Below are positions 12,212-62,335 of a DNA stretch of 64,000 bases, one piece after another. The DNA is taken from positions 17,934-81,933 of the forward strand of contig CADBCV010000006.1 in NCBI GenBank assembly GCA_902793285.1. The letters are read 5' to 3'. The notes below the pieces were generated by a model. That model was not told where the DNA came from. It was given only the letters and a program-made list of their open reading frames with translations, and ran no database searches. This DNA is from Oscillospiraceae bacterium. GTDB lineage: Bacteria > Bacillota > Clostridia > Oscillospirales > Oscillospiraceae. Both the position numbers and the translations under genes were made by a program. Numbering within the stretch: position 1 is the stretch's first letter; every line of letters begins with the position of its first letter.

Positions 12212-12247
12212 GACGCCGGGGACTTGTGGAAAAAGTACCGCACAGCC

Positions 12248-12390
12248 GCAGGGGAGGGGCTTGCCCCTCCCGTGCGCAGAAAGGTTAACATAGCAAAAAT
12301 GTACGGCGATTTCGTAGCAAGTTACGATTTCGCCGTACATTGCTTTATGATTACCCTATGCCGCCGGGAGGGGCAAGCCCCTCCCCTACG
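12248..12390. repeat. Nested inverted-repeat element, copy A
   Basis: Outer arms of 25 bp (12248-12272 and 12365-12389; GGGGAGGGGCTTGCCCCTCC type, each itself palindromic) enclose an inner hairpin of 18-nt arms (12299-12316 / 12323-12340) beginning ATGTACGGCGA. A near-identical element is at 48600 and a related one at 43736. No reading frame is inside. Confidence 0.85.
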
Positions 12391-12519: not shown

Positions 12520-13029
12520 ATGGCACACCCCCTTATTAACCGGGATTTTTATGAGGCCGTGCTCCGCTTTGAAGAGAGTGAGGAGGCCCAGGATACCTAT
12601 TACCGCATCATGGATACCGAGGTCGAGCGCGGCGGCAGGCGCTACAGCGTGCGCGAGCAGATCCTGCGCGCCTACTCCATGCTCTTCTGCGACGATCTCG
12701 GCGCCTCGGCCGGGCAGATCGCCTCGCCCGAGGATGTGGAGGCCACCGCCGACCGCCTCTATGTGGGCGAGCTGCGCTTTGATCCCCAGCACTGGTACCG
12801 GATGCAGCACCACTTCCCCGTGATCGACGAGGATAACTACGATCGCTTTGCCGCCCTGGTCATCGCTGACCTCTCGGCAGGCCCCCTGCATGAGACGGCG
12901 GCGGACGGGGAGGGTATGCTCCTTGTGGGCGCGCTCAACCCCCTCGGCATGAGCCGCGACGAGCGGCAGCACCAGAAGGTGCGCGCCGTCACGCCGGCGG
13001 ACCTCCCGGGGAAGGAGGACGTGCCATGA
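12520..13029 (+). CDS. Uncharacterised cytoplasmic protein, coupled to response regulator
   Basis: A 169-residue soluble protein with no signal peptide, no membrane segment and no motif I can name. It is rich in acidic and aromatic residues (FDPQHWYRMQHHFP in the middle). SD AAGGAG sits nine nt before the ATG at 12520; the seven-residue upstream extension is rejected. Its stop overlaps the next start (ATGA at 13026), so it is translationally coupled to the receiver-winged-helix regulator. That suggests a role in the same signalling step, for example as a partner or modulator. This is inference from position only. Confidence 0.75.
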   Translation: MAHPLINRDFYEAVLRFEESEEAQDTYYRIMDTEVERGGRRYSVREQILRAYSMLFCDDLGASAGQIASPEDVEATADRLYVGELRFDPQHWYRMQHHFPVIDEDNYDRFAALVIADLSAGPLHETAADGEGMLLVGALNPLGMSRDERQHQKVRAVTPADLPGKEDVP

Positions 13030-13832
13030 CGATCCTGAACGTCCTGAAAAACGGGGAGACCCGCAGCGCCGTCGGACAGACGCTGGAGGCGATCTCGCCT
13101 GATGCCGAGCTCATGAGCTTTGAGGACGGCCTTGCCGCGCTCAAGGCCGCCCGCGAGAAGGAGATCGACGTCGCCTTCCTCGATGTGGACCTGCCGGAGC
13201 TCAGCGGTCTCGATCTCGGCCAGTATCTCCAGGAGCTCTACCCCCTGGTGAATCTCATCTATCTCGCGGACAACGGCGATAAGGGCTATGAGGCCATGGC
13301 CCAGCACGCGAGCGGCTATCTTCTGAAGCCCGCGAGCGCCGCCGCCCTGCAGCGGGAGCTGGACGATCTGCGCCACAGCGCCGTGCAGAAAAAGCACAAG
13401 CGCGTCTTCGCCCAGACCTTCGGGAACTTTGAGCTTTTTGTGGACGGGCAGCCCGTGGCGTTCAAATATTCCAAGACCAAGGAGATCGTGGCCCTTCTCA
13501 TCAATAACCGCGGGGCCCAGACCACAAACGGCGAAATCATCGCCACCCTCTGGGAGGACGAGGGGGACCCGGAGAAGAAGGGCTCCTACCTCTCAAATCT
13601 CCGCCAGGACCTGCAGAACACCTTCTCGCGCCTCAAGCTCACAGGCATCCTCATCAAGCAGCGCGGCAGTCTTGCCATCGCGGCCGACCGCATCGAGTGC
13701 GATCTGTACGACTGGCTCGAGAAGCGGCAGGAGTCCCGCTATCACTACCTCGGCGACTACATGAACCAGTACAGCTGGCCGGAGGTCATGCACGCGGAGC
13801 TGGACGAGATCAGTTGGTCCTTCGATGCGTGA
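13026..13832 (+). CDS. Orphan response regulator: receiver plus SARP/OmpR-type winged helix
   Basis: A 268-residue regulator. Residues 1-115 form a receiver domain with the phospho-acceptor Asp in FLDVDLPELSG and the Lys of YLLKPAS. Residues 130-225 form a winged helix of the trans_reg_C/SARP type (FGNFELFVDGQPVAFKYSK, then TNGEIIATLWED). The C-terminal tail is short, with no full BTAD domain. No histidine kinase is nearby. Such winged helices bind direct repeats with 10-11 bp period next to the -35 region, which is exactly the motif found upstream of the secreted protein at 15670 and two leader-LysM genes. It is 24 nt upstream of leader-LysM 1. Control of that set is inferred. Confidence 0.88.
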   Translation: MTILNVLKNGETRSAVGQTLEAISPDAELMSFEDGLAALKAAREKEIDVAFLDVDLPELSGLDLGQYLQELYPLVNLIYLADNGDKGYEAMAQHASGYLLKPASAAALQRELDDLRHSAVQKKHKRVFAQTFGNFELFVDGQPVAFKYSKTKEIVALLINNRGAQTTNGEIIATLWEDEGDPEKKGSYLSNLRQDLQNTFSRLKLTGILIKQRGSLAIAADRIECDLYDWLEKRQESRYHYLGDYMNQYSWPEVMHAELDEISWSFDA

Positions 13833-13856
13833 TACATAGAGACAGGAGACACAGAA

Positions 13857-14075
13857 ATGGAAAAACGATTCATGAAGCTGAGCGATGAGGATCTCGCGGG
13901 GGCGTCCGGCGGCTACGCGGGGCCGACCTTCGTCTACACCTTCCAGCAGGGGGACGATCTCTACCAGCTTGCCACGCGCTACGGCGCCACCGTCCGCGTC
14001 CTGCTGGAGCTCAACAACATCCAGAGCGCAAGCCAGATCAAGCCCGGCACGCGCCTTCTGATCCCCCAGCGCTGA
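13857..14075 (+). CDS. Leader-LysM mini-protein 1 (double-glycine leader + LysM)
   Basis: A 72-residue protein. Residues 1-19 form a bacteriocin-type leader, KLSDEDLAGASGG, with Gly-Gly at 18-19; in known systems a C39-peptidase ABC exporter cuts after this. The mature part is one LysM domain (FVYTFQQGDDLYQLATRYG ... LLELNNIQ ... IKPGTRLLIP), a fold that binds N-acetylglucosamine-containing peptidoglycan. SD CAGGAGA fixes the start. It lies between the orphan regulator and a YdcF-type membrane protein in an apparent operon. Two further genes with the same plan are at 17696 and 23980. Export to the cell wall is inferred; no exporter is in the window. Confidence 0.88.
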   Translation: MEKRFMKLSDEDLAGASGGYAGPTFVYTFQQGDDLYQLATRYGATVRVLLELNNIQSASQIKPGTRLLIPQR

Positions 14076-14076
14076 G

Positions 14077-15510
14077 ATGCGAAAAACGCTTCTTGCGCTG
14101 CTTTTGGCCCTCGCTGCCTGGACCGGGATCTTTGCCCTCTGCCTGCTTTTCGGCGGGGGCGGGCTGACGCTGTATTTCGAGATCCCGCCCGAGGCGGAGG
14201 GGGTGCGCTTTGAGACAGAGCCCGCGGGGATCGTGGCGCTCGCAGACACAAGCTATTCCGCGGACGGGGCAGAGCTCTTACTGCACCTGCGCGCCGAGAG
14301 CCGCGGCGTGACCCAGGGCATCCTGCGCTGGGACGGCGTGGGGGAGGAGAGCTTTTACGCGCCCGAGATCCGCATGACGCTGCGCGCGCTGCCCTTCGGC
14401 ATTTTAAGCGACAGCCTCACGGGAAACTTTACCGGCTGGGGCTATCTCGCCGTCTGCCTCTCCCTCTTTCTTCTGACGGCGGCGCTGATCCTCTTTCTCG
14501 CCTCTCAGAGAGAGCGGCGGCACGCCTTTTACTCCTACCGCGCGACGGGGGAGCTGGGCCTTGCGCTGTTTCTGCTGCTGGCGGGCTTTTTCCGCGCGGA
14601 CACGGTTCTGCCCTTCCTGCGCGGGGAGAACGCCGGCACTGTCTGGGCCCTGCTCATCGGGGCCATCGTCTCCGCCCAGACCTTCATGCGCTGGACGGCG
14701 GTGGCGCTCGGGGCCTTTTCCCTGCTGCTTGCGGTGAGCAATCTCGTGCTCGTCCGGCACGAGGGGGCGCGCCCCGCCAACATGCTCGGCATCGCGGTGG
14801 GCCTTGTGATCGTCGGGGGCGCGGCCTTCGGCATCTGGATGTCCCGTTCCATGCTGACCTTCCCGCTGAGAAACGTGCTCTTAAACACCTATGCCGGCGT
14901 CTTCGTCTATCTGGAGTGCCTGCTCGCCGCGACGGTGGTCCACGCTGTCCGGGCCGGACGGCACGAGCCGGACTATGACAAGGACTATATCCTCGTGCTG
15001 GGCTGCCGCATCCGGCCGGACGGGACGCTCTACCCCCTGATCCGCGGGCGCGTGGACCGGGCCATCGCCTTCTGGCGGGCGCAGCTCGCCGCGACGGGAA
15101 AGCGCGCGATCCTGGTCCCGAGCGGCGGTCGGGGCGGGGATGAGCCGATGTCCGAGGGTGAGGCCATGGCGCGCTACATGCTCGAGCAGGGCATCCCGGC
15201 GGACGCCGTTCTGCCGGAGTGCGAGTCCGCGACCACGCGGGAAAACCTGCTCTTCTCCCGCAGGCTCACAGGGGAGGGGAGCCGGGTCGCCTTCGCCACC
15301 TCGAGCTACCATGTGTACCGGGGCGGCATCCTCGCGGCCGATCTCGGCTGGAACATCGACGGTATGGGCAGCCGGACCCGCTGGTACTTCTGGCCGAACG
15401 CCTTCCTGCGGGAGTTTATCGGGCTGCTCACCTCCACCCGCCTGCAGCAGGTCACGGCCCTCGCCCTCATCGTGATCCTCAGCGTGGGGCTCACCCTGCT
15501 CGTGATGTGA
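14077..15510 (+). CDS. YdcF/DUF218-type polytopic membrane protein
   Basis: A 477-residue membrane protein. It has an N-terminal signal anchor, a short external domain, then about six to seven membrane segments, then a DUF218 domain (YILVLGCRIRPDGTLYPLIRGRVDRA, later SGGRGGDEPMSEGEAM) and a last helix at the C terminus. DUF218 proteins such as ElyC and SanA act in envelope or peptidoglycan-precursor homeostasis in other bacteria; the precise reaction is unknown. The ATG is one nt after the stop of leader-LysM 1 with no clear SD, so it is translationally coupled. The stop codon lies inside the first TGTGACA box of the next promoter. Confidence 0.85.
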   Translation: MRKTLLALLLALAAWTGIFALCLLFGGGGLTLYFEIPPEAEGVRFETEPAGIVALADTSYSADGAELLLHLRAESRGVTQGILRWDGVGEESFYAPEIRMTLRALPFGILSDSLTGNFTGWGYLAVCLSLFLLTAALILFLASQRERRHAFYSYRATGELGLALFLLLAGFFRADTVLPFLRGENAGTVWALLIGAIVSAQTFMRWTAVALGAFSLLLAVSNLVLVRHEGARPANMLGIAVGLVIVGGAAFGIWMSRSMLTFPLRNVLLNTYAGVFVYLECLLAATVVHAVRAGRHEPDYDKDYILVLGCRIRPDGTLYPLIRGRVDRAIAFWRAQLAATGKRAILVPSGGRGGDEPMSEGEAMARYMLEQGIPADAVLPECESATTRENLLFSRRLTGEGSRVAFATSSYHVYRGGILAADLGWNIDGMGSRTRWYFWPNAFLREFIGLLTSTRLQQVTALALIVILSVGLTLLVM

Positions 15511-15539
15511 CACTTTTGTGACAATATCCGGGTTATGAT
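15506..15539 (+). promoter_or_regulatory. TGTGACA direct-repeat promoter, copy 1 (secreted repeat protein)
   Basis: TGTGACA (15506-15512), CTTT, TGTGACA (15517-15523), 10 nt, then -10 TATGAT (15534-15539). The heptamers have an 11-bp period, and no consensus -35 is present, as expected for an activator-dependent promoter. The 120-nt leader contains a hairpin around CCTGCGTT/AACGCAGG (15621-15642). Confidence 0.8.
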
Positions 15540-15669
15540 CTATAAAAATCCTGCCCTGCGAAGCGGTGGAAAACACTGGACAAGCGGGGAAGATTATGTT
15601 AACATATATCTGTAAACCCGCCTGCGTTTTACGAGAACGCAGGCCAGAAAGAACGAGAGGAGACCATCT

Positions 15670-17619
15670 ATGAAAAAACGCATACTCAGCTTCCTGCTCG
15701 CGGCGCTGATGCTGTTTTCGCTGGCACTCTGCGGAAGCGGCGCGGCCCTCGCCGATGAGGGCACGGATATCGACGCCCAGCTCAACCTGATCTTTTCCCA
15801 GATCGGAAACCTGCTGCAGCAAAACGGCGAGCTGACCTGGTACTACACTGTTACGGACCTCGACCACAACGGCCGTCTGGAGTTCATCGCGGCGGCCCAG
15901 CATCCAGAGGACCGCTCCACGAACCTCCACATCTGGGAGGTCACCACGGACAAGACCGCCCTCACCGAGGACAGCGTCAGCAAGCAGGCGGAGGAGTCCT
16001 TCCCCGACATCCTCACCGACAGCGCGGACACCTATCATGATCTTGCCACTGACTCCTGGTTTTACATGTTCTATGACAACGTGATCCTCTCCGCGAACGA
16101 GGTCTTCACCAGCAAGAGCGCCTACCGGCTCAAGGACGGCGTCATCGGCTACCTCGCCTACGCCGTTGAACACACCGTGGTCGAAAACGGCTACCGCAAC
16201 GTCACCCACATGGACCAGAACGGCAACAGCATCTCGGCCGAGCAGTTTAACGCCGCCGGTGAGGGGGCCTTCTCCGGCTGCGAGAGAAGCAGCACGAACT
16301 TTGACTGGATCACGGCCGCGGACGCAAATTCCCTCGCCCGCCTCGCCGACTGCTACGCGGTCTTCACGGGAAGGAAGAACGCGCCCCAGTCCTTCCCCGT
16401 GCCGAAGCCTGCGGCGCTCGAAAAGCCGGTCGCTACCGCCGCGCCCTCGCCCTCGCCCGCGCAGAATAACGACGCCGTGGTCTACCTCTCCGTGACCAAG
16501 AACCCCACCAACGAAAACCGCAAGGTCGGCGACACCGCCTACTTTGTCTCCTGTGCCAACGCCTTTGACTCCCTCACCTGGACCATGGTCGCCCCCGGCG
16601 GCGGCGAGTACTCCATCCAGAACTTCCAGAACCTGTACCCCGCGTGCCCTGTCTCCGGCCAGTACAGCACGACCCTCTCAATCGGCAAGCTGACCGCCGA
16701 TCTTAATAGCTGGGGTGCCTATTGCACCTTCAACTACAAGGGTCAGACTGCCCGCACTTCGACGGCGTACATTTATGTCACCCAGCAGCAGGAAAAGAAA
16801 AATCCGAGCGGCACCTACTCCGGAAGCGTTGTCGACTGGACCTTCAGCACGGTGACCGTGAGCGTCAACGGTGTCAATGCCGTGATCCCCTGGGGCCTCT
16901 GCGATGTGGAAGGCGATCTCTACTACGGCGCGTCCGCGTCCGTTGTCTATAACGGCAAGGACATCACCTACTGCTACATCAAGGGCAGCTATACGCCTGC
17001 GCCCACCTACGGCTCCATGAGCGGCACAATATACAGCGACACGGCCTCCACCGTGTATGTGGTACTGCAAAACGGGTTGGGCCTGCATCTCAACGCCTAT
17101 CTTGTCAACTGGGTCAGCGGCAGTGTTCTCGACGGTGCGGGCTGCACCGTGTACTACACCGACTATCCGAGCGGCGACACCGTCTATCAGATCGACGTCT
17201 ACGGTTACACGCCGCAGCCGGTGTACGGTACGATGAACGGCACAGCCTATGAGGGCGGCGGCGGTTTCGCCATCTATTTGACGAACGGCAGCCAGGTCTA
17301 TGTTGACTCGTGGCTCTGCAATGTGGTCGGCACTTTCTACGACGGCGCCGGCTGCGTTGTTGAATACACCGACTACCCGAGCAGTGACAACATCTATTCG
17401 GTCACGATCTACGGCAATCAGGGCCTGGTCGTCGATCCCTATCCCGTCAACAACGACAACGACTATGACTGGCCCAGCTACGACGATTTTGACTACGAAG
17501 ACTGGACCGACTACGGCGGCTGGGCAGGCTCCAGCACCGTGACCTGCCCCAACTGCCTGAGCGAGGTCGCCTCGGCCTACGACAACTGCCCCAACTGCGG
17601 CGCCTCACTCTGGAGCTGA
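15670..17619 (+). CDS. Secreted protein with triple beta repeat and C-terminal zinc ribbon
   Basis: A 649-residue protein. A Sec signal peptide ends near residue 28 (AALA). Residues 30-250 form an uncharacterised N-terminal domain, followed by a proline-rich linker and an Ig-like segment (about 280-375). Three related units of about 70 residues begin near 381, 447 and 519 and share YGSMSGTIYS / YGTMNGTAYE starts and DGAGCTVYYTDYPSGD-like ends. After an Asp/Tyr-rich stretch, the last 24 residues are CPNC-x11-CPNCG, a zinc-ribbon pattern normally cytoplasmic and odd on an exported protein. Promoter copy 1 of the direct-repeat motif drives it, and leader-LysM 2 follows directly. Confidence 0.82.
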   Translation: MKKRILSFLLAALMLFSLALCGSGAALADEGTDIDAQLNLIFSQIGNLLQQNGELTWYYTVTDLDHNGRLEFIAAAQHPEDRSTNLHIWEVTTDKTALTEDSVSKQAEESFPDILTDSADTYHDLATDSWFYMFYDNVILSANEVFTSKSAYRLKDGVIGYLAYAVEHTVVENGYRNVTHMDQNGNSISAEQFNAAGEGAFSGCERSSTNFDWITAADANSLARLADCYAVFTGRKNAPQSFPVPKPAALEKPVATAAPSPSPAQNNDAVVYLSVTKNPTNENRKVGDTAYFVSCANAFDSLTWTMVAPGGGEYSIQNFQNLYPACPVSGQYSTTLSIGKLTADLNSWGAYCTFNYKGQTARTSTAYIYVTQQQEKKNPSGTYSGSVVDWTFSTVTVSVNGVNAVIPWGLCDVEGDLYYGASASVVYNGKDITYCYIKGSYTPAPTYGSMSGTIYSDTASTVYVVLQNGLGLHLNAYLVNWVSGSVLDGAGCTVYYTDYPSGDTVYQIDVYGYTPQPVYGTMNGTAYEGGGGFAIYLTNGSQVYVDSWLCNVVGTFYDGAGCVVEYTDYPSSDNIYSVTIYGNQGLVVDPYPVNNDNDYDWPSYDDFDYEDWTDYGGWAGSSTVTCPNCLSEVASAYDNCPNCGASLWS

Positions 17620-17624
17620 CGGCG

Positions 17625-17658
17625 TGTGACACTTGTGTGACAGAAGCCGTGCTATACT
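17625..17658 (+). promoter_or_regulatory. TGTGACA direct-repeat promoter, copy 2 (leader-LysM 2)
   Basis: TGTGACA (17625-17631), CTTG, TGTGACA (17636-17642), 10 nt, -10 TATACT (17653-17658). It begins six nt after the stop of the secreted repeat protein, so the small gene has its own promoter. Confidence 0.82.
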
Positions 17659-17695
17659 GTGCACACAAACAAAAAAGAAACGGAGGAATTTCAAT

Positions 17696-17908
17696 ATGAA
17701 TCTCAACAAAGTTGCCATGAGCGATGACCAGCTCGATCAAGTCAGCGGCGGCACCATGATCCCCCACCAGATCCAGCCCGGCGAGAGCCTGGATATGATC
17801 GTGGCGAAGTACCACAACCGCTTCACCAAGGCCCAGCTTGCCCAGTGGAACAACATGAGCGAGAATGGCACCCTGAAGGCCGGCGAGACTCTCAAGATCT
17901 ACTTCTGA
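17696..17908 (+). CDS. Leader-LysM mini-protein 2
   Basis: A 70-residue protein built like the one at 13857. The leader AMSDDQLDQVSGG has Gly-Gly at residues 18-19, and a single LysM domain follows (HQIQPGESLDMIVAKYH ... LAQWNNMSE ... LKAGETLKIYF). The ATG at 17696 has GGAGG nine nt upstream; the longer frame from 17633 has no SD and overlaps the promoter. An intrinsic terminator closes the transcript, so it is monocistronic. Export by a C39-peptidase ABC transporter and binding to peptidoglycan are inferred from the two domains. Confidence 0.88.
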   Translation: MNLNKVAMSDDQLDQVSGGTMIPHQIQPGESLDMIVAKYHNRFTKAQLAQWNNMSENGTLKAGETLKIYF

Positions 17909-17916
17909 ACCAAAGC

Positions 17917-17952
17917 AAAAACCCGACACGCCATGCGGCGTGCCGGGTTTTC
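17917..17952 (+). terminator. Intrinsic terminator after leader-LysM 2
   Basis: AAAACCCG and CACGCC pair across loop ATGC with GGCGTG and CGGGTTTT. Confidence 0.88.
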
Positions 17953-17978
17953 CAATCTCACTTTTGCGAGGTGCGCGG

Positions 17979-18635
17979 ATGCGAACAGATTATACCGACG
18001 AGACCATGAACCCCGCGGGCTTTGTCCTGCTGGCCGATTACGTCCCCCATATCGTCCAGGAGATCCGCTATTACTCCACCTATAACTTCATCGGCGAGCG
18101 CATCGACGGCTACGAGGAGCCCTGCGCCATCCTGAGCATCGAGGCCGCCCGGGCGCTCAAGGCCGCCAGCAGCGAGCTCATGGTCCAGGGCTACCGGCTC
18201 AAGGTCTTCGACGCCTACCGCCCCGCCTGCGCCGTCAAGCACTTCGTCCTCTGGGGGATCGAGGATCAGGACGTGCGCATGAAGCCCTATTTCTACCCGA
18301 CGCTCGAAAAGCAGGAGCTCTTCGCGCGGGGCTATATCGCCAAGCAGTCCAGCCACAGCCGGGGCAGCGCCGTGGATCTCACCCTCCTCGACATGAAGAC
18401 GGGCAAAGAACTCGACATGGGCAGCCCCTTCGATCTCTTTTCCGAGGCGTCCCACCCGGACTTCCGGGGCATCACCCAGGAGCAGTATGAAAACCGTATG
18501 CTCCTGCGCGGCGTCATGATCCGAAACGGCTTTCAGCCCATCGACTGCGAGTGGTGGCACTTCTCCTTAAAGCATGAGCCCTACCCCGACACCTATTTTA
18601 ATTTCCCCGTCTCCTCGGCCTACCTGAGACGGTGA
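17979..18635 (+). CDS. VanX/DdpX-type D-Ala-D-Ala dipeptidase (M15D)
   Basis: A 218-residue zinc dipeptidase. Zinc ligands and catalytic residues are visible in SSHSRGSAVDLTL (His, Asp) and CEWWHF (Glu base, His), with FDAYRP, the Arg-containing substrate loop. The family cleaves D-Ala-D-Ala, either for vancomycin resistance or for recycling cell-wall dipeptide. No vanH/vanA ligase, vanR/vanS pair or signal peptide is present, so cytoplasmic recycling is the simpler reading. The ATG at 17979 follows GAGGTG. It lies next to the LysM and YdcF genes, which fits a cell-wall neighbourhood. Confidence 0.92.
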   Translation: MRTDYTDETMNPAGFVLLADYVPHIVQEIRYYSTYNFIGERIDGYEEPCAILSIEAARALKAASSELMVQGYRLKVFDAYRPACAVKHFVLWGIEDQDVRMKPYFYPTLEKQELFARGYIAKQSSHSRGSAVDLTLLDMKTGKELDMGSPFDLFSEASHPDFRGITQEQYENRMLLRGVMIRNGFQPIDCEWWHFSLKHEPYPDTYFNFPVSSAYLRR

Positions 18636-19340
18636 TCGATCCCCTCAGCGCCGCAGTACGTTGTAACAATATCTGTCATCTCCTAATAATAGATCGCGGT
18701 AAAACGTTCGTCCACTCCGTAGGGGCGCCCGCAAGCCCGCGATCCGGTACAGGCGTACCACGATGCGCGAATGCTGCCGCATCACCGTAGGGGAGGGGCT
18801 TGCCCCTCCCGCGCACGGAAAGCGACGTTTTTCCCCCGCGCCCGGGCGAACAGGTAAAACCGACATGGTGCCCCCGGGCCGCCGAGGGCGTCGGCCCCTA
18901 CGGAGCGGACGGACATTTTTGCCGTTTTATCGCACATATCTAATGCGGTGAGGTTTCGGGCGGGGCGAGCCGCCGCCCCTACGGCGTGGTCGGACATTTT
19001 GCTTCTCTACGCACATTCTCGATGTGATTGGGTTTTGGACGCTCCCGCAAGGCCCCCTTGCCTAAAGGGGGCTGGCACCAGTGCGCACACTGGTGACTGG
19101 GGGATACCATTCTTGCAAGCCGCTCAAAAGGACGCACATTCTGTATCCCTCCGTCAGCTCGCAGGCTCGCTGCCACCCCGCAGCGCCTGTCGTAGGGGCC
19201 GACGCCCTCGGCGGCCCGCGCGGGGAAACCGACGGTTATGCTCCGCGCCCGGGCGAATGCGTAAAACCAACATGGTACCGCCGGGCGAATGATATCCGCC
19301 CCTACGGTAACTTTTTTATTCGGAATTAGTATGAATTACT
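18636..19340. repeat. Gene-free mosaic of CCGTAGGGG-type palindromic repeats
   Basis: This 700-bp stretch has no supported gene. From 18717 to 19316 it holds repeat arms bounded by CCGTAGGGG or CCCCTACGG: the GGGGAGGGGCTTGCCCCTCC type at 18788, GCCGACGCCCTCGGCGGC type near 18880 and 19197, and a GGCGAATGATATCCGCC type near 19290. A shared middle segment (CGCCCGGGCGAA ... TAAAACC) occurs near 18840 and 19247. A CCCCCTT...AAGGGGG hairpin lies near 19050. Confidence 0.8.
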
Positions 19341-20009
19341 TCACGCCCAGGTGAAATTGTCCCGCCCGGCGCCGAGCTCGAAATGGCACTTCACGATACC
19401 GAGATCGATTTTGAGGCAGGAGCCGATGAGCCCCGCCTTTGCGGACACGCGATTGCCGTCGAGAAGCTCAAAGCGGAACTTCTGCTGGTTCACGGCGGTC
19501 GGGGCCAGCAGCGCCGCCTCCACGCCGTTATGGAACCAGGCGGGGGCGCTCTCGCCGGCGTTGCTGACAGCTTGCGCGCTCTTGCCCCGGTGGGGGACGC
19601 CCTGCGTCTTGCCGTAGCCCAGGGCGATGAGGATGACCTCCCTCTCGTCCGGCCCGAGGTTTGCCGCGCTCTTGCCGTGGGTCAGCGCGGCCCAGCAGGT
19701 GTTGAGCCCCAGCTCCTGCGCCTTCAAAACCAGCTTCTCCCCGTAGTAGCCGCAGCGCTCCTCCAGATCGTCCGCCCTCTTGCCGATCAGGGCGATGTAG
19801 TTTTCGCAGTTTTCAAAGCGGCCGTAGTGGGCCATGCGGGAATTGAAGCACACGGGCTCGTCATAGAAAATCTGGATGTGCAGCCCGCCCTCGCGGTTGA
19901 GCGCCTCGGCGCAGGCGTCAAGCTCCCGGCGCAGCTCCCCCGGGATCGCCTTGCTCAAATACTGTCTTACGCTGTGGCGCGCGCGGATAAGCTCCATCAT
20001 GTCGCTCAT
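19341..20009 (-). CDS. Nitroreductase-family protein
   Basis: A 222-residue FMN-dependent nitroreductase-like protein of the larger putative TM-nitroreductase type. It starts MELIRARHSVRQYLSK (the Arg-Ser FMN phosphate contact), has LNTCWAALTHGK in the middle, and has a C-terminal half SAPAWFHNGVEAALLAPTAVNQQ that repeats the fold, so one chain may supply both halves of the active site. NAD(P)H-dependent reduction of an unknown substrate is likely. SD AAGGAGG fixes the ATG at 20009. It is monocistronic. Confidence 0.88.
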   Translation of the reverse strand: MSDMMELIRARHSVRQYLSKAIPGELRRELDACAEALNREGGLHIQIFYDEPVCFNSRMAHYGRFENCENYIALIGKRADDLEERCGYYGEKLVLKAQELGLNTCWAALTHGKSAANLGPDEREVILIALGYGKTQGVPHRGKSAQAVSNAGESAPAWFHNGVEAALLAPTAVNQQKFRFELLDGNRVSAKAGLIGSCLKIDLGIVKCHFELGAGRDNFTWA

Positions 20010-20083
20010 GTTTACCCCTCCTTGCGGTATGTTTTATTACAGGCTACCGCAGATCCCGGCGCTTGTCAATAAGAGATTCCTTC

Positions 20084-21007
20084 TCAGCGCGCGGGATCGT
20101 CAAAAAAGCGCATCCCCCGGGGGACGATCAGGCGCAGCGCGCCGGGGACCAGCTTCATATCGACACTCTTTGCGTACTGGGCCTCGCCGTCGATGTTCAC
20201 AACGCTCTCCCGCTCAAATTCAATGTGTACGCTCTCCCCGTGCAGGTGGGTGATGATCTCCGGGTGGCGGTCCGCCCTTCCTGCGGCGTAGTCCCCGATC
20301 GCCCGGGCGAGCGTGAAAAGGCTCACGCCCTTCGCGGCATAGATGTCCAGCACGCCGTCGTCCGGTCGGGCGCTCAGGCTGGGGTTGAAGCCGCCCCCGT
20401 AATAGCGCCCGTTGCAGACGCAAAGGAGCGCGTGCTCCCCCTCGGCACGGTAGTCCCCGATCTGCACCGCCATGCGCTGGTTGACGCCCTTTAAAATGTT
20501 GACCACCGCGGAGGTGATGTAAGCCCGCTTCCCGCCAAGGAGGGGGAGGGCGCTGTAGGCGTGGACGCCGACGCCGATGCGCGCATCGATGCCGACCGAG
20601 CAGATGTTCGCGCTCCAGCGGCCGTTGCAGTTGATAAGGTCGATGGGGTGCTCCGTGCCGGCGAGCAGGGCGTCGAGATCCCGGTACAGGCCCTGCTCCT
20701 CCCCGAACATGCGGCAGAAGTCGTTGCCGGTCCCGGTGGGGAAGGGGCACACGGCTGTGTTCTCAAGCAGGGCCGCGCCGCACACGCACTCGTTGAAGGT
20801 CCCGTCGCCCCCGCAGGCATAGACGCGCAGCCGATCGCACACCGCGGCGTCCTCCCGGACCTTGTCCGCCGCGTCCATCGGGGCGCGGGTCACATAGACC
20901 TCGTATGCATCAGCCCGGTTTGCAAACGCCGCCCGCACAGCCCGGGTCACGTCGGCGCTCTTGTCCGCGCCGCCGGCCACGGGATTCACGATAAAAAGAT
21001 GCTTCAT
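20084..21007 (-). CDS. Diacylglycerol/lipid kinase (DagK/YegS family)
   Basis: A 307-residue lipid kinase. The N-terminal catalytic domain shows NPVAGG, GGDGTFNEC (nucleotide loop) and PTGTGNDFCRMFG; the C-terminal domain binds lipid. The family phosphorylates diacylglycerol, returning it to phospholipid synthesis. The ATG at 21007 starts MKHLFIVNP, the normal family N terminus, so the 24-residue upstream extension is rejected although the SD is weak. It lies 22 nt downstream of the MFS symporter on the same strand and is probably co-transcribed, with no obvious functional link. Confidence 0.92.
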   Translation of the reverse strand: MKHLFIVNPVAGGADKSADVTRAVRAAFANRADAYEVYVTRAPMDAADKVREDAAVCDRLRVYACGGDGTFNECVCGAALLENTAVCPFPTGTGNDFCRMFGEEQGLYRDLDALLAGTEHPIDLINCNGRWSANICSVGIDARIGVGVHAYSALPLLGGKRAYITSAVVNILKGVNQRMAVQIGDYRAEGEHALLCVCNGRYYGGGFNPSLSARPDDGVLDIYAAKGVSLFTLARAIGDYAAGRADRHPEIITHLHGESVHIEFERESVVNIDGEAQYAKSVDMKLVPGALRLIVPRGMRFFDDPAR

Positions 21008-21029
21008 TCTCTCTTTCACTCTCTTTTGC

Positions 21030-22517
21030 TTAGCGCCTGAGCCCCGCGTTCTGCGGGTTCCAGAGCGCGTCGTAGGCAAAGCCCGTCACCTTCTCCAGAG
21101 CTGCCTTCTCCGCATCCGCGGCAACCGTCTTCTCGTCCCCGCGCCGGCGGGCGATATCTCTCTGGACCATGTCAAACTCCTGGCCGGTGATGGGGAAGAA
21201 GAGGTTTACGACGATCAACAGCGCGGTCAAAATCGCCGGGGCGAGTACGAAGATGAGCGCGATGCCCCGCTGCGTGAAGGCACTCTGTCTCACGCCGGCG
21301 CTCGCCAGCACCTCGTCATACCCGACGGCGGCGAGCAGAAAGCCGATCAGCGCCGCCGAGAGACCCGAGGAGACCTTGCGGATAAAAGTCGCCATGCTGG
21401 AGACGACGCCGGGTCTGCGCACGGAGGTGATGAGCTCGTCCACGTCCGTCATGTCCGCCATCACCGCAAAGATCCCCGTGAGGCAGCCGGCGTTGCCGAA
21501 GCCCACCAGGGCCGTGAGAGCGAGGATCGGGACAAGGCTTGCCCCCTCATGGGAGAAGAAATAGAGCCCCGCAATGCCGAGCAGACGCGCCGGCGCGCCG
21601 ATCATGATGGCCTGCTTTTTGGATGTGCGGCTCATGATCGGGCCGAACACCGCCATGCCGAGAAGCTGCGAGAGCATGAGCGCCGCCATCACATAGGTGA
21701 AGTAGCCGTTCTGATAGGCGTTCAGCACATCGTCCACGTAGTACACCGCCATGCCGGAGATGAAGTCCATCCCGCACTGACCGAAGAGATAGAGCCCCAG
21801 AAACAGGCGGAAGGAGCGGTTTTTGAACACGCTGACGGCCTGGGGAACGCTCTCCCTCATGCCGGATCTGACGGGCAGCTTCTGCTTTTCCCAGGTGCCG
21901 AAGAAGACCGCGATGGACGTGAGGAAGAACAGCACCCCGAACAGAAGCGCGCAGCGGAAGTAGGCGGCGGGGTCGAGGTTATCTTTGATCATGAGCGTCG
22001 GCACGATGCCGCAGACCATGGCCCCGAGCGTGGACCACACCATGCGCATGTTGGAAAAGCGCGAGCGCATCGCGTAGTCGTCCATCATGTCGGGCAGAAG
22101 CCCGTTATAGGGGACGGAGAAGACCGTGAAACCCGTGCTGAAAAGGCAGTACATCACAATATAGAAGAGATACATCACCGTGACGGACGGCGTGGAAACC
22201 CGCAGCCACATCATGACAAAGGTTACCGCGGAGGCGATGCTGCCGATGAGGATATAGAGCCTTTTCGCCCCAAACCGGGACACGGTGCGGTCTGTGATGT
22301 TGCCCATGATGGGGTCCGTGATCGCGTCCCAGATCTTGCCCACCAGGGGGATCGTCCCCGCGAGGGCCGTGGGCATCCCGAGCGCTTTCGTGAGGAACAC
22401 TGCAAAGAAGGAATTGATGATGACAAAGCATCCGCCGCCGAAAAATTCACCGATGCCGTACAGGACTCTGCTGAAGAAGCCGTAGCTTGGATTTCTGCCG
22501 CTGATTTTCTCGTTCAT
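21030..22517 (-). CDS. GPH-family (MelB-like) sugar:cation symporter
   Basis: A 495-residue, 12-helix transporter of the glycoside-pentoside-hexuronide family. GKIWDAITDPIMGNITDRT is the hallmark helix 2 to loop 2-3 run, and VPYNGLLPDMMDD follows. It imports a sugar or glycoside with Na+ or H+. The C-terminal cytoplasmic tail is longer than usual. The ATG at 22517 follows GGGAGG; the 76-residue upstream extension is rejected. It is followed by the lipid kinase gene; no glycosidase is adjacent, so the substrate is unknown. Confidence 0.88.
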   Translation of the reverse strand: MNEKISGRNPSYGFFSRVLYGIGEFFGGGCFVIINSFFAVFLTKALGMPTALAGTIPLVGKIWDAITDPIMGNITDRTVSRFGAKRLYILIGSIASAVTFVMMWLRVSTPSVTVMYLFYIVMYCLFSTGFTVFSVPYNGLLPDMMDDYAMRSRFSNMRMVWSTLGAMVCGIVPTLMIKDNLDPAAYFRCALLFGVLFFLTSIAVFFGTWEKQKLPVRSGMRESVPQAVSVFKNRSFRLFLGLYLFGQCGMDFISGMAVYYVDDVLNAYQNGYFTYVMAALMLSQLLGMAVFGPIMSRTSKKQAIMIGAPARLLGIAGLYFFSHEGASLVPILALTALVGFGNAGCLTGIFAVMADMTDVDELITSVRRPGVVSSMATFIRKVSSGLSAALIGFLLAAVGYDEVLASAGVRQSAFTQRGIALIFVLAPAILTALLIVVNLFFPITGQEFDMVQRDIARRRGDEKTVAADAEKAALEKVTGFAYDALWNPQNAGLRR

Positions 22518-22877
22518 ACTTTCCTCCCGTTTTTGGTCACCTCTAAATCCTCCTGCCCGGTGCTGCGCCGGATCTTTTGCCCCGGCTTTTCGTGCAAAAA
22601 ACTTGAAAGCCACAAAGGATTCCTGCGTTTTTTGCCCTTCAATCTGAGACAAAATCTCTCGACGCATCACCAGACCCGCGTTTTTAGAGGCGCCCTTTTG
22701 AAGAAATTCGCCATAACATGGTAATTCTATCAGAGATCGTCCCATTCATCAACCGTAAATTCTCCGAAAAAAAGCCGGCTTTTCCCTTGAATTTTTTGTA
22801 GGAATATGGTCGCATTTGGGCGCGAGGGAATGTATAATGCTTGCATCGGAATCCAATTGCGCTTGGGAGTGTGACCG
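22518..22877. promoter_or_regulatory. Divergent intergenic region (GPH symporter / XRE regulator)
   Basis: No gene is seen. A -10 TATAAT (22833-22838) with a poor -35 can serve the XRE gene. No palindromic operator stands out. The leftward leader of the symporter is AT-richer than its neighbours, but no terminator or riboswitch is recognised in it. Confidence 0.4.
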
Positions 22878-23381
22878 ATGCCGAAAGTATCCTCCAGACC
22901 GGATAAGACCATGTATATGCTTGTCCGGGAAGAGCTTGGGCTCACCCGGGAAAAGGCGAGTGAGCTGATCACGGGCCAGATCATCTCCGCCGACCGCCTC
23001 GAAAAGATCGAAAACCGCCGCCTCACGGCCCGGCCGGATGAGATCCTCGCCCTCGCGGAGGCGTATAAGGCCCCCGCTATCATCAATTACTACTGCACGC
23101 ACGACTGTGAGATCGGCGGCGCCTATATCCAGGAGATCAAGCCGAAGCAGCTTTCCCAGATCGCCATTGAGACGCTCAATTCCCTCAACAAGCTCTCCCA
23201 GGTCAAGGAGCGGCTTCTTGAAATCGTGGAGGACGGCGTCATCTCCGAGGATGAGTATGAGGATTTCTGTGAAATCAAGGACAATCTGGACAAGATGGCC
23301 CGCGCGGTGGAAAGTTTGCAGCTCTGGGTGAATGAGAGCGCTGCGAAGGGAAATCTCGATATTACGGCGGTATCTCGCTGA
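22878..23381 (+). CDS. XRE-type helix-turn-helix regulator
   Basis: A 167-residue protein. Residues 10-65 form a Cro/CI-like helix-turn-helix (LVREELGLTREKASELI ... LEKIENRRLTARPDEILALAEAY). A helical C-terminal region with likely coiled coil (ETLNSLNKLSQVKERLLEIV) may mediate dimerisation. A CTHDCEIG motif after the HTH is notable. It is free-standing with an SD GGGAG upstream of the ATG, and not next to phage genes. Target unknown. Confidence 0.82.
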   Translation: MPKVSSRPDKTMYMLVREELGLTREKASELITGQIISADRLEKIENRRLTARPDEILALAEAYKAPAIINYYCTHDCEIGGAYIQEIKPKQLSQIAIETLNSLNKLSQVKERLLEIVEDGVISEDEYEDFCEIKDNLDKMARAVESLQLWVNESAAKGNLDITAVSR

Positions 23382-23443
23382 AAACGGAGAAATAAGCTGT
23401 TTATCCCGCGGATTTAACAGTTTATGATAGTCGTGCCATCCTG

Positions 23444-23690
23444 TATAATGGGATCACGACGAATACGGAACCAAGGCGCCGGCTTCGTCGGAAAGACCGG
23501 GCGAATAAGACGCCTTCCACATCTGGCCGAACGGCCGCGCGCAACCCCTTCCCCCGCATAAGATACAGCAACCATACCCGCCTCAAGCGGATTCTTACGC
23601 GCTGCCAAGGAGAGCTACGCTGGCTCATTTGGCAGGAATCCGAAATGGGGCAAAAAAATCAGGAGATGTCAAATCTCCTGATTTTTATTT
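23444..23690 (+). ncRNA. Unidentified structured RNA gene candidate
   Basis: A -10 TATAAT at 23444-23449 is followed by about 200 nt without a credible reading frame and then an intrinsic terminator (AAAAATCAGGAGAT / ATCTCCTGATTTTT, 23654-23686). Local stems include AAGGCG/CGCCTT, GGCCG-aa-CGGCC, CCGC/GCGG and CTGCCAA/TTGGCAG. The 5' and 3' ends do not pair as in 6S RNA, and I see no SRP, RNase P or tmRNA signature. Family unknown. Confidence 0.5.
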
Positions 23691-23710
23691 TCCGCATCGC
23701 GGAGATAAAA

Positions 23711-23736
23711 AACCGCCGGGGCTTGCCCCGGCGGTT
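23711..23736 (-). terminator. Intrinsic terminator after leader-LysM 3
   Basis: AACCGCCGGGG pairs with CCCCGGCGGTT across loop CTTG, followed on the minus strand by a T run (23711 downward). Confidence 0.88.
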
Positions 23737-23743
23737 CACGCTT

Positions 23744-23980
23744 TCAGCGGACGCGGATAACCTGGCCGACGGAAATGACGTCGGGATTCTTGATGCTGGG
23801 GTTGAGAGACAGGATCTGGCTCAGGGGAACCTGGGCGCGCCAGGCGATCTCAGACAGGGTGTCCTTGGAGACAACGCGGTAGTAGATCGCAGAGCCTTCC
23901 TGCCAGAAGGTGCCGCCGGCGCCGCCGCCGGTCACGTTTTCGACTTCCTGCTCGTTGAGGACTTTCTTTTCTTCAGACAT
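23744..23980 (-). CDS. Leader-LysM mini-protein 3
   Basis: A 78-residue protein with the same plan as those at 13857 and 17696. Leader VLNEQEVENVTGG has Gly-Gly at residues 18-19. A LysM domain follows after a 14-residue spacer (YYRVVSKDTLSEIAWRA ... ILSLNPSIKNPDVISVGQVIRVR). The ATG at 23980 has AAGGAG nine nt upstream; two more upstream ATGs are rejected, and this choice also makes all three leaders exactly 19 residues long. Its promoter is copy 3 of the TGTGACA direct-repeat motif although it lies 6 kb from the regulator. Confidence 0.88.
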   Translation of the reverse strand: MSEEKKVLNEQEVENVTGGGAGGTFWQEGSAIYYRVVSKDTLSEIAWRAQVPLSQILSLNPSIKNPDVISVGQVIRVR

Positions 23981-24034: not shown

Positions 24035-24068
24035 ATCATACCAGGGCTTCCGTCACAGAAGTGTCACA
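24035..24068 (-). promoter_or_regulatory. TGTGACA direct-repeat promoter, copy 3 (leader-LysM 3)
   Basis: On the minus strand: TGTGACA (24068-24062), CTTC, TGTGACG (24057-24051), 10 nt, -10 TATGAT (24040-24035). Spacing is identical to copies 1 and 2. Confidence 0.82.
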
Positions 24069-48548: not shown

Positions 48549-48599
48549 GCAAAGGGGCCGTTGCGAAACGCACTTTTCGCAGAATCCGGCCATAAACAG

Positions 48600-48745
48600 C
48601 GTAGGGGAGGGGCTTGCCCCTCCCGCGCGGCAAAACGTTCCGATATGGTAAAATGTACGGCAATTTCGTAAAATACTACGATTTCGCCGTACATTTCTTT
48701 TTTGGTTATCTTGTACTGCCGGGAGGGGCAAGCCCCTCCCCTGCG
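48600..48745. repeat. Nested inverted-repeat element, copy B
   Basis: Outer 26-nt arms (48600-48625 and 48720-48745) are nearly the same as those of copy A at 12248. The inner hairpin (48651-48670 / 48677-48696) again carries ATGTACGGC and CGATTTCGCCGTACAT. Non-coding. Confidence 0.85.
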
Positions 48746-56894: not shown

Positions 56895-56928
56895 TGTGAT
56901 GCTTCTGTGACTGTTGAAATGCTATACT
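56895..56928 (+). promoter_or_regulatory. TGTGACA-type direct-repeat promoter, copy 4 (orphan)
   Basis: TGTGATG (56895-56901), CTTC, TGTGACT (56906-56912), 10 nt, -10 TATACT (56923-56928). The spacing is identical to copies 1-3. Downstream there is an SD (AAAGGAG 57002-57008) but no start codon or frame before the terminator at 57021. Confidence 0.7.
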
Positions 56929-60528: not shown

Positions 60529-61386
60529 TCAGCCCTCGCGCACCACGTATTCGTTCACGTAGTTGACGCCCGCGATGGTCTTGCCGTATAGGGCCAGAAA
60601 CTCCTCCAGGCAGAGGTCGTTTTCCATGATGTAGGCGGCGGCCTCCTTGCCGACGTAGCGGTAATGCCCGGGGTAGCAGGCCATGCCGTAGACCTCGCTC
60701 TTGTTCTCGGGATAGCGCACGATGAAGCCGTATTCGGCACAGTGCTCGTCCATCCACTGGCAGACCGGCGTGCCGGCCACCGTCTCATCGTGGATGTTGG
60801 AGTAGTTCACATCCGCCCAGTAGTACGACTCGTCCGTGATGTCAAAGGCGAGCCCGGTGGAGTGCTCGCTGCAGCCGGCGGCGAAGACATGCTTGGCCGC
60901 CTCATAGGACGCGCCGGGGAGAAAGTGGCAGTACTCTGTGTCGTACTCGCCGTACTGGTGCATGGCGTTTTCATACCAGAAGACGGTATATTCCCAGTTG
61001 CGGTAGGCCGAGCAGAGATAGACCTCAAAGCCCTGGTCGCGCGCCGCCTGGAGAAATTCGGCGGTGGCGGGGGTGCAGCGCTCATCCATATACTGCCCGT
61101 CCACTGTCCCCACATGGGGGTGGTAGCGGCCGACGCCGAGATGGGGCCCGGCATAGAGAAATTCCCAACTGTTGATGTCAATGTCCGGCAGGGGCGGCAG
61201 CTCGATGGGGGCGGGCTTTTCAGACTCCGGCGCCGCGGTCTCCTCCGCGATGGCCGCCTCTTCCGCAGGGGAAGCCTCCGCGCTGCCCGCCACGGGCAGG
61301 GCCGCGATGGGAAGCCGCGCGCAGCCGGGAAGGGATATGAGCAACAGAAGCGCCGCCAGGACCGAAAGAATCCGTTTACTCTTCAT
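60529..61386 (-). CDS. VanY-like M15B lipoprotein with altered active site
   Basis: A 285-residue lipoprotein (lipobox LPGC near residue 22). The M15B fold is present with CSAYRNWEYTVFWY, SEHSTGLAFDIT (His and Asp zinc ligands) and CYPGHYRYVG. In active VanY/LdcB enzymes the last motif is EPWHF; here Glu is Tyr and Trp is Gly, so the zinc ligand His stays but the catalytic Glu base is gone. It is seven nt downstream of an intact paralogue with which it shares the C-terminal run LCLEEFLALYGK. Probably inactive on D-Ala-D-Ala, perhaps a binding protein or a changed specificity. Confidence 0.88.
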   Translation of the reverse strand: MKSKRILSVLAALLLLISLPGCARLPIAALPVAGSAEASPAEEAAIAEETAAPESEKPAPIELPPLPDIDINSWEFLYAGPHLGVGRYHPHVGTVDGQYMDERCTPATAEFLQAARDQGFEVYLCSAYRNWEYTVFWYENAMHQYGEYDTEYCHFLPGASYEAAKHVFAAGCSEHSTGLAFDITDESYYWADVNYSNIHDETVAGTPVCQWMDEHCAEYGFIVRYPENKSEVYGMACYPGHYRYVGKEAAAYIMENDLCLEEFLALYGKTIAGVNYVNEYVVREG

Positions 61387-61393
61387 GGCCGCT

Positions 61394-62335
61394 TTACTCG
61401 ACGCCGTAGAGGGCGAGAAACTCCTCCAGGCAGAGATTGTTGTCCGTCATGTAATGGGCCGCCTCGACGCCGACATAGCGGAAGTGCCAGGGCTCATAGA
61501 TGATGCCGGTGACGCTGTCGGCGCTGCCGCTCTTGTCGGCGGGATAGCGCACAACAAAGCCGTAGTCCGCGCAGTTGTCGCGCAGCCACTGATAGGTGGG
61601 CGTCTGCTCGAGGGAGCTGTCCTTGGTCTCGCGGTAGTAGTCCGTGATGTCGCAGGCGAGGCCCGTCTGGTGCTCACTGGTGCCGGGGCGGGCCACGATG
61701 GTGGCGGCGACATCCTCGGCATAGCCCTGGCCGATCTTGCGCTGGAACAGATAGCTCTGCTCATCGTAAGAGCGGTAGCCGGAGGAGAGATAGACCGGCA
61801 GCCCCGCGTCCTTGCAGCCCTGGGCAAACGCGAAGAGCTGGTCCGCGATGCGCAGGTCCACGGCGCAGCGGTTGGGGTTGTAGTTTGTCTGGATGTCCGT
61901 CTCGCTGAGCGTCATGTTGAGATAGCCCATTTGAGGCGGCTGATAGGTCTCGATCGGGTGCCAGGGATTTGCCAGCATCATCTCCCAGCTCTCCACGTCC
62001 ACATCCGGCGGGGCGGGCAGGCCGAGGGCGGCCGCGTTATCCCGCGCAAGCTGCAGCGTGGGGCTCACTTCCGGCTCCGCGGGCACGGGCTCCTCTGTCG
62101 GCTCGACCGCGGGGAGGTCGGGCGTTTCGGTGCTGTAGCTCATCTGGACGGGCGTCTCCTGCGGGGCGGTGATGACAGTGTCCGCCTGGAAGCCCTCGGG
62201 GTGCAGGCCGGTGGCGGGGCCCCAGGACGCTACATCGTCGCTGTGCCAATGGATCTGCTCCTGCCTGTAGGTATAAAAACCCAGAAAGAGCAGGGCGAGG
62301 ATGCCGATGATGATTCTTCCGACACGGTTTTTCAT
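61394..62335 (-). CDS. VanY-like D,D-/L,D-carboxypeptidase (M15B)
   Basis: A 313-residue membrane-anchored zinc peptidase. An N-terminal helix (GRIIIGILALLFLGFYTY) is followed by a Pro/Glu-rich linker and the M15B domain with LSSGYRSYDEQ, TSEHQTGLACDIT (His, Asp) and YEPWHFRYVG (Glu base, His). Family enzymes trim the terminal D-Ala from peptidoglycan stem peptides outside the membrane. SD AGGAGG precedes the ATG. Translation-distance coupling to the paralogue downstream suggests joint function. Confidence 0.92.
   Translation of the reverse strand: MKNRVGRIIIGILALLFLGFYTYRQEQIHWHSDDVASWGPATGLHPEGFQADTVITAPQETPVQMSYSTETPDLPAVEPTEEPVPAEPEVSPTLQLARDNAAALGLPAPPDVDVESWEMMLANPWHPIETYQPPQMGYLNMTLSETDIQTNYNPNRCAVDLRIADQLFAFAQGCKDAGLPVYLSSGYRSYDEQSYLFQRKIGQGYAEDVAATIVARPGTSEHQTGLACDITDYYRETKDSSLEQTPTYQWLRDNCADYGFVVRYPADKSGSADSVTGIIYEPWHFRYVGVEAAHYMTDNNLCLEEFLALYGVE

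Follow-up and report, generated by a model that had tools for sequence, protein, structure and literature searches.

The locus described here raises the question of why a leader peptide of the bacteriocin type should be attached to a domain that binds the cell wall. It lies in a 64,000-nucleotide stretch of DNA, referred to throughout as the window, from the draft genome of an Oscillospiraceae bacterium (NCBI GenBank assembly GCA_902793285.1, contig CADBCV010000006.1, positions 17,934 to 81,933 of the forward strand; 2.36 Mb in 57 contigs, 79.5% complete), and positions below are counted from the first nucleotide of the window. Three small genes in the window each encode a leader with a double glycine (GG) followed by one LysM domain. 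LysM domains bind peptidoglycan glycans, and C39 peptidase-containing ATP-binding cassette (ABC) exporters are usually read as machines for bacteriocins, pheromones or RiPPs (ribosomally synthesized and post-translationally modified peptides). We propose that the three proteins are wall-binding mini-proteins that would be processed and exported by a C39 transporter and bound to peptidoglycan, and we regard export and wall binding together, leaving their purpose aside, as very likely. The leaders, the domains, the exporter, their co-occurrence and linkage in relatives and a shared operator are established from sequence, and this uncultured genus of Clostridia appears to use a C39 exporter as an additional path for secreting small folded domains, which in this genome are mostly wall-binding ones.

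Three Mini-Proteins With a Double-Glycine Leader and a LysM Domain

The preliminary description of the window recognized three open reading frames (ORFs) with Gly-Gly at residues 18 and 19 followed by one LysM domain, and this is borne out by ORF translation and by PF01476, which all three proteins match above its cut-off of 20.9 bits. The type A gene (13857..14075, + strand) encodes 72 residues with a predicted mature part of 53; its leader, MEKRFMKLSDEDLAGASGG (13857..13913), carries L-12, D-10, L-7, A-4 and GG, and the LysM domain spans residues 27-70 (13935..14066; 46.5 bits, E 3.5e-12). Type B (17696..17908, + strand; 70 residues, mature part 51) has the leader MNLNKVAMSDDQLDQVSGG (17696..17752), with M-12, D-10, L-7, V-4 and GG, and a LysM domain at residues 24-68 (17765..17899; 28.2 bits, E 1.8e-6). 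The third type is encoded on the opposite strand (23744..23980, - strand; 78 residues, mature part 59) and has the leader MSEEKKVLNEQEVENVTGG (23924..23980), with L-12, E-10, V-7, V-4 and GG, and a LysM domain at residues 34-77 (23750..23881; 48.5 bits, E 8.5e-13). Longer frames are possible for type B (start at 17633) and for the third type (24034 in the ORF list, 24001 with our in-house gene caller), and the starts at 17696 and 23980 were retained because GGAGG and AAGGAG, respectively, lie 9 nt upstream of those ATGs. The three mature parts, of 51-59 residues, are basic (pI 8.1-9.5), lack cysteine and hardly extend beyond the LysM module.

The leaders stand out statistically. With a 12-column matrix for which 45 leader 12-mers, all of them from other loci, served as the training set, the protein starting at 17696 scores 30.3 bits, that at 23980 25.8 and that at 13857 21.4. 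No other among the 478 window ORFs with 40 or more residues exceeds 8.4 bits, and 20,000 shuffled proteins reach 11.5 bits at most. A consensus was derived from 50 distinct leaders of three families (LysM, CW_7 and F15) that were delimited by BLAST, the leader pattern serving only to locate the leader, and the pattern is present in every member of these families. The GG is invariant (50 of 50), position -4 is V in 42, A in 4 and I in 4, position -7 is L in 38, M in 9, V in 2 and A in 1, position -10 is D in 41, E in 8 and T in 1, and position -12 is L in 21, M in 12, I in 12, V in 4 and F in 1. Hydrophobic residues thus precede the GG at -4, -7 and -12 in all three window leaders (with A-4 in type A and V-7 in the third type), and these same positions are reported to be the leader contacts of the C39 protease LahT (PMC6363468). 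A strong hydrophobic N-terminus is absent from protein families F0, F7 and F15 and present in F3 and F6.

The C39 ABC Exporter

The absence of a double-glycine peptidase such as C39 from the genome had been named beforehand as an outcome that would refute export. A C39 ABC exporter is present, on contig 49. It is the sole C39 peptidase match of the genome (PF03412, 118.8 bits) and the same ORF contains the ABC membrane and ATPase domains, the whole protein scoring 932 bits against TIGR03796 (cut-off 853.3). A second ABC gene lies next to it (TIGR03797, 719 bits; cut-off 709.4) and a gene for a small HlyD-like protein of 138 residues (mini-HlyD) lies on its other side. The C39 domain is closely related to LahT (PDB 6mpz; E 1.6e-71), with 104 of 143 residues identical (73%), and it retains the catalytic residues, Cys28, His102, Asp118 and Gln22 standing opposite Cys27, His101, Asp117 and Gln21 of LahT. 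The earlier statement that no exporter is in the window holds as far as tested, the only C39 match of the genome being on another contig, and a position of the exporter beside the cluster in the window was accordingly rejected. No leader genes were found in the flanks compared, of at most 10 kb on either side of the exporter, on contig 49 or in its close relatives L106-L108 (the loci that we compared carry L numbers).

A scan of named genomes for relatives of the exporter yielded at least 80 loci, mostly labeled as Clostridia or its families with a few labeled otherwise, and many are of ruminant origin according to their record titles. Where the HlyD-like partner is given in L106-L185 it has ~137-141 residues in near and far relatives, compared with a model of 421 positions. 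One of these loci also has, just after the exporter operon, a stretch (L107:14979-16727) that is 86% identical to positions 60534-62346 of the window. A LanC-like protein was not found in the genome, and the same search was positive in only one of 14 control genomes. We set aside a reading of the proteins as RiPP precursors on the lack of this match, no search for other RiPP enzymes having been made.

Co-Occurrence and Linkage in Relatives

Leader-LysM proteins and C39 exporters occur together across the genus. Strong leader-LysM matches (E ≤2.3e-19, a limit set after a gap to 1.1e-14 had been noticed) are present in 56 of 102 genomes and C39 in 66; 54 have both and 34 neither (Fisher P = 1.3e-14, a rough guide only, as these are related genomes and many of them are incomplete), and missing contigs may produce false absences in these counts. 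The two genes are on one contig, 1.3-9.7 kb apart, in at least 31 of the 54 genomes, which is a lower bound because it was counted among the matches listed, mostly one per contig, and the last C39 matches, mostly weaker or partial, were omitted. CW_7 matches, most of which lie in short open frames, were found in 56 genomes of this set of 102. A wide spread of leader-LysM proteins through the class was considered and rejected: among the matches listed (291 genomes) only the three of this genome begin at model position 1, and a single divergent leader-LysM protein was found outside the near group, in L134.

The nature of the linkage is evident from 22 loci, namely, the window, contig 49 and 20 stretches from the same genus that were mostly chosen for leader-LysM matches, with genes called by a simple in-house caller. 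The full order, as in L082 and L086, is mini-HlyD, C39 ABC protein, second ABC protein, a 169-residue protein (F5), response regulator, leader-LysM type A, DUF218 protein, a leader-LysM protein of 81-87 residues, a large protein (F3) and leader-LysM type B. The order is not fixed and differs, for example, in L078. Of the 22 loci, 14 contain the ABC family (F1), 13 mini-HlyD, 16 the regulator, 12 F5, 11 DUF218 and 8 a leader protein carrying CW_7 repeats (one of these proteins matches PF08230 with E 3.6e-28). The window holds the middle of this conserved string, from 12520 to 17908, without the exporter, and the genes at 13857 and 17696 are therefore cluster neighbors. The preliminary description, which had called all three genes unlinked, was wrong in this respect for those two. 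The product of the gene at 23980 resembles that of L084:7651-7875.

Other Cores Behind the Same Leader

The genome contains further leader genes, which the preliminary description had suggested should be sought. A leader-only model of 19 positions was built from 32 rows, 5 of them from this genome (the three window leaders, a CW_7 protein and a Cys-rich protein), and it finds six places in the genome with E ≤2.4e-4, the next being at 1.45. Only the SH3-like gene is new to this model, because the other five leaders were among its rows. Besides the three LysM cores there is a leader with one CW_7 repeat on contig 1 (PF08230, 2.4e-17), a leader with a Cys-rich core on contig 33, which was found both through the operator-like repeat described below and in the leader-only search, and a leader with an SH3-like core on contig 39, from the leader-only search. 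The contig 39 protein itself has no Pfam SH3 match, and its name rests on its identity to L082:92-376 (66%) and to relatives, five others being 39-45% identical, that include L162:1055-1354 (40% identical), which is above the SH3_3 cut-off (30.4 vs. 27 bits). CW_7 repeats are reported to be muropeptide binders (PMC5705596). Counting the SH3-like one, five of the six leader-gene cores of this genome are wall-binding module types.

Some relatives of the exporter have other short leader proteins beside them. From the far loci, 37 leader proteins were picked by hand, with HlyD-like and ABC pieces, evident false pattern matches and one protein with unread bases excluded; four match SH3_3 and three PepSY (E ≤0.05), some give matches of zinc-ribbon type and others have no match. 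The PepSY-core proteins near the same exporter type are L143:7616-7879, L150:13738-14004 and L156:10897-11163. It seems that this type of exporter serves more than wall modules.

An Operator-Like Direct Repeat

Several of the genes share an upstream element. Perfect copies of the direct repeat TGTGAC-N5-TGTGAC precede type B, the third-type gene and the gene for the large protein F3 (15670..17619, + strand). The copies are TGTGACACTTTTGTGAC (15506..15522, + strand), 147 nt before the F3 gene, TGTGACACTTGTGTGAC (17625..17641, + strand), 54 nt before type B and with TATACT 11 nt downstream, and TGTGACACTTCTGTGAC (24052..24068, - strand), upstream of the third-type gene and with TATGAT 11 nt downstream. 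The pattern was derived from two window genes. In the 22 loci, window included, 34 of 54 leader genes vs. 5 of 271 others have it in the 220 nt upstream of them when one mismatch is allowed (Fisher P = 9e-27; genes with <120 nt upstream and repeated identical proteins were excluded), and four of the five others are F3 or F5 cluster genes. Each of 40 permuted-hexamer patterns gave 0 or 1 match. Among the 80 named loci, 18 of 39 leader genes in the near group and 1 of 35 in the far group have the repeat upstream, and the figures for other genes are 4 of 420 and 0 of 738, respectively; this count overlaps with the preceding one since the proteins of L115, L118, L119, L123 and L125 duplicate those of L078, L079, L081, L095 and L082. 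The leader gene of L084 that resembles the third type also has the repeat.

The genome as a whole has 9 sites with at most one mismatch vs. 3 for the reversed pattern. One on contig 33 revealed the Cys-rich leader gene, three further sites are on contigs 5, 11 and 37, and no clear leader gene was seen at the sites on contig 4 and at 56895 in the window. The latter (56895-56911) has one mismatch and is followed by TATACT with no clear ORF downstream, and may represent a small RNA or a leader gene in decay. The natural candidate for a protein that reads the operator, probably, is the cluster response regulator F2 (13026..13832, + strand; PF00072, 50.6 bits, cut-off 30.2), although its identity as the regulator is a prediction. 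The type A gene starts 24 nt after the F2 gene, with which it may be transcribed, and ends 1 nt before the gene at 14077-15510.

Proposed Route to the Cell Wall

We propose the following scheme. The 19-residue leader would be recognized by the C39 domain of the contig 49 ABC exporter, the precursor would be cut after Gly19 and the mature LysM module of 51-59 residues would be pumped out to bind peptidoglycan, first of all in the wall of the producing cell. The same pump would also carry the related precursors whose cores are CW_7, SH3-like or Cys-rich, and part of the precursor genes would have their own promoter and direct-repeat operator, probably read by the cluster response regulator. Export of the leader mini-proteins is, we consider, well supported; their cleavage and transport we infer from sequence, and binding to the wall is predicted from the domains.

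Several observations weigh against this scheme or parts of it. The exporter is not adjacent to the leader-LysM cluster in this genome, and another exporter may be missing from the draft because the latter is only 79.5% complete. The mini-HlyD protein scores 33.9 bits against TIGR03794, below the cut-off of 156.2, and covers only model positions 1-86 of 421. A leader-LysM gene without a detected C39 gene is found in two genomes, G363 (93% complete) and G364 (83%), and C39 without leader-LysM in 12 of the 102. The operator is present at only three of the six leader genes of this genome, with none before type A (≤1 mismatch) or around the CW_7 gene (≤2 mismatches) and only an unrelated match with three mismatches near the SH3-like gene, and 20 of 54 leader genes in the near group and 34 of 35 in the far group lack it, so that we reject it as a universal mark of leader genes. 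The match of F2 to a DNA-binding domain is also weak (PF00486, C-terminal, 13.8 bits, cut-off 26.2).

The purpose of such proteins is a matter for conjecture. The preliminary description left open whether they decorate the wall or signal there, and we favor decoration. We suggest tentatively, and as a guess, that the bare modules occupy sites in the wall and coat or mask it, which is preferred over killing or signaling because a module with nothing else attached would not be expected to cut the wall and can occupy, coat or crowd it. LysM, CW_7 and SH3-like module types are also used by phage and rival lysins. That a mixture of bare modules fills the docking sites on the producer's wall and acts as a decoy against such lysins is conceivable, although we consider it rather unlikely.

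Alternative Explanations

The GG leader, the short and basic mature parts and the C39 exporter would also fit bacteriocins, in which case the mature LysM peptides would bind and disturb the walls of competitors and the producer would protect itself by wall changes, for example, through the D-Ala-D-Ala dipeptidase family protein encoded nearby. There are also weak matches to bacteriocin leader models. With TIGR01847 type B scores 12.8 bits, below the cut-off of 15.7, and the other two window proteins are not among the matches listed, an F15-type sister protein of L079 is just above the cut-off (15.8 bits), and the SH3-like protein scores 20.7 bits against Bacteriocin_IIc (cut-off 27.1). These matches, however, fall at the leader end, and the mature part is a LysM module beside which the Pfam scan recognized nothing lytic or membrane-active in any of the three proteins. 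An immunity protein was not recognized among nine scanned window proteins, the three mini-proteins included, in a search that was not exhaustive. Bacteriocins are on balance improbable. We give the same low standing to the proposal that these are developmental wall or spore proteins with LysM modules like that of SafA, moved by an ABC exporter. In the NCBIfam scan the third ORF is matched best by the SafA LysM model, but the score of 31.2 bits is far under the cut-off of 67.85 and reads as plain LysM similarity. Near some clusters (L077, L081, L092 and L094) there are proteins that we take, from their sequences and general knowledge, to be candidate phosphatase, STAS-like and cyclic-nucleotide-binding proteins of the partner-switching type, which would fit a developmental role; the related proteins with CW_7 or SH3-like cores give no hint of a role in the spore.

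Extracellular signals that are sensed through the cluster response regulator are still harder to credit and we consider them very improbable. The regulator gene lies directly upstream of type A and many leader genes share the operator, but the mature parts span several unrelated domain families, and no sensor kinase was recognized among the nine scanned window proteins, a genome-wide kinase search not having been made. Finally, the leader-like stretch could have arisen by chance in proteins that never leave the cytoplasm, but only the absence of direct export data speaks for this, and it is scarcely credible given matrix scores far beyond the null, one leader on unrelated cores, and linkage and co-occurrence with C39.

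Relation to Known Systems

MAM of Faecalibacterium duncaniae, a gut species from a Clostridium cluster, is among the closest known systems. The protein is reported to be small, to start with a GG leader and to occur in its mature form in the cell envelope; a C39 ABC exporter (PCAT) gene lies alongside in most Faecalibacterium species and the export step was argued in silico (PMC12184118). The two systems share the GG leader and the C39 exporter, and the MAM leader has Ile or Val at -12, Met at -7 and Val at -4. They differ in that the MAM leader has an MMMPAN-type start not seen in the leaders here and its core is helical and modeled as a hexameric lattice (PMC12184118), whereas the cores here are wall-binding module types, several per genome and part of them marked by the operator. 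MAM is a recent precedent for transporters of this kind carrying a protein of the envelope, and the difference here lies in the LysM, CW_7 and SH3-like cargo, with several proteins per genome that are partly operator-marked. A prior description of LysM, CW_7 or SH3 mini-proteins with a GG leader was not found in the accessible parts of the open-access literature, including PMC3482391, PMC11322243 and PMC10100652.

Other known systems resemble this one in part. As in the NHLM/NHLP systems (PMC2887384), a HlyD-like gene lies alongside two ABC subunits that are above the TIGR03796 and TIGR03797 cut-offs, but the HlyD-like protein has 138 residues and is below the TIGR03794 cut-off, the search of the genome for a LanC-like protein was negative, and the three window precursors have no nitrile-hydratase or Nif11 leader match in the NCBIfam scan, a genome-wide search for such leaders not having been made. 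LahT, the protease of a Lachnospiraceae lanthipeptide operon, has a C39 domain 73% identical to that described here and the same leader contact positions, but it is reported to have been tested on lanthipeptide and other RiPP precursors (PMC6363468), whereas the cargoes here belong to known folded-domain families. The Naps of Neisseria are likewise GG-motif peptides with a C39 peptidase and are reportedly not bacteriocins, but they are cationic, class II microcin-like and linked to autolysis, and no wall-binding module is mentioned in the available part of that report (PMC11798529). With respect to the operator, the SARP sites of Streptomyces are also heptameric direct repeats, with 4-nt spacers and an 11-bp period near the promoter (PMC10972967). 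Heptamer-type direct repeats with an 11-bp period near a promoter are found at the three mismatch-free sites in the window, but the candidate regulator here is a response regulator with a DNA-binding part that is weakly matched by Pfam.

If the proposal is correct, some "bacteriocin export" annotations in such bacteria represent envelope-building systems, which is consistent with the MAM report, and bacteriocin-type pumps may also serve for coating bacterial walls. The leader model provides a simple handle for finding their cargo.

Neighboring Genes and Minor Features of the Window

The remaining cluster genes in the window are those for F5 (12520..13029, + strand), which was identified by locus comparison and has 169 residues and no family match in the NCBIfam and Pfam scans, the DUF218 protein F6 (14077..15510, + strand; PF02698, 85.5 bits), which like F3 is a cluster member with a hydrophobic N-terminus, and F10, the D-Ala-D-Ala dipeptidase family protein (17979..18635, + strand; NF033115, 201 bits, cut-off 320). 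F5 has a mean column identity of 77% over 11 sequences and its gene lies next to that of the response regulator wherever it occurs (12 loci). F10 follows type B and is present in 4 of the 22 loci, with relatives in L078, L086 and L094. A hairpin of 16 pairs (17917..17952) lies after type B, with a terminator-like call on the - strand only, and the hairpin search placed a terminator-like hairpin (23710..23737, - strand) after the third-type gene. Interspersed repeats of the GGGGAGGGGCTTGCCCCTCCC type occur in the window at 12238-12390, 18777-18822 and 48591-48745 and in other pairs.

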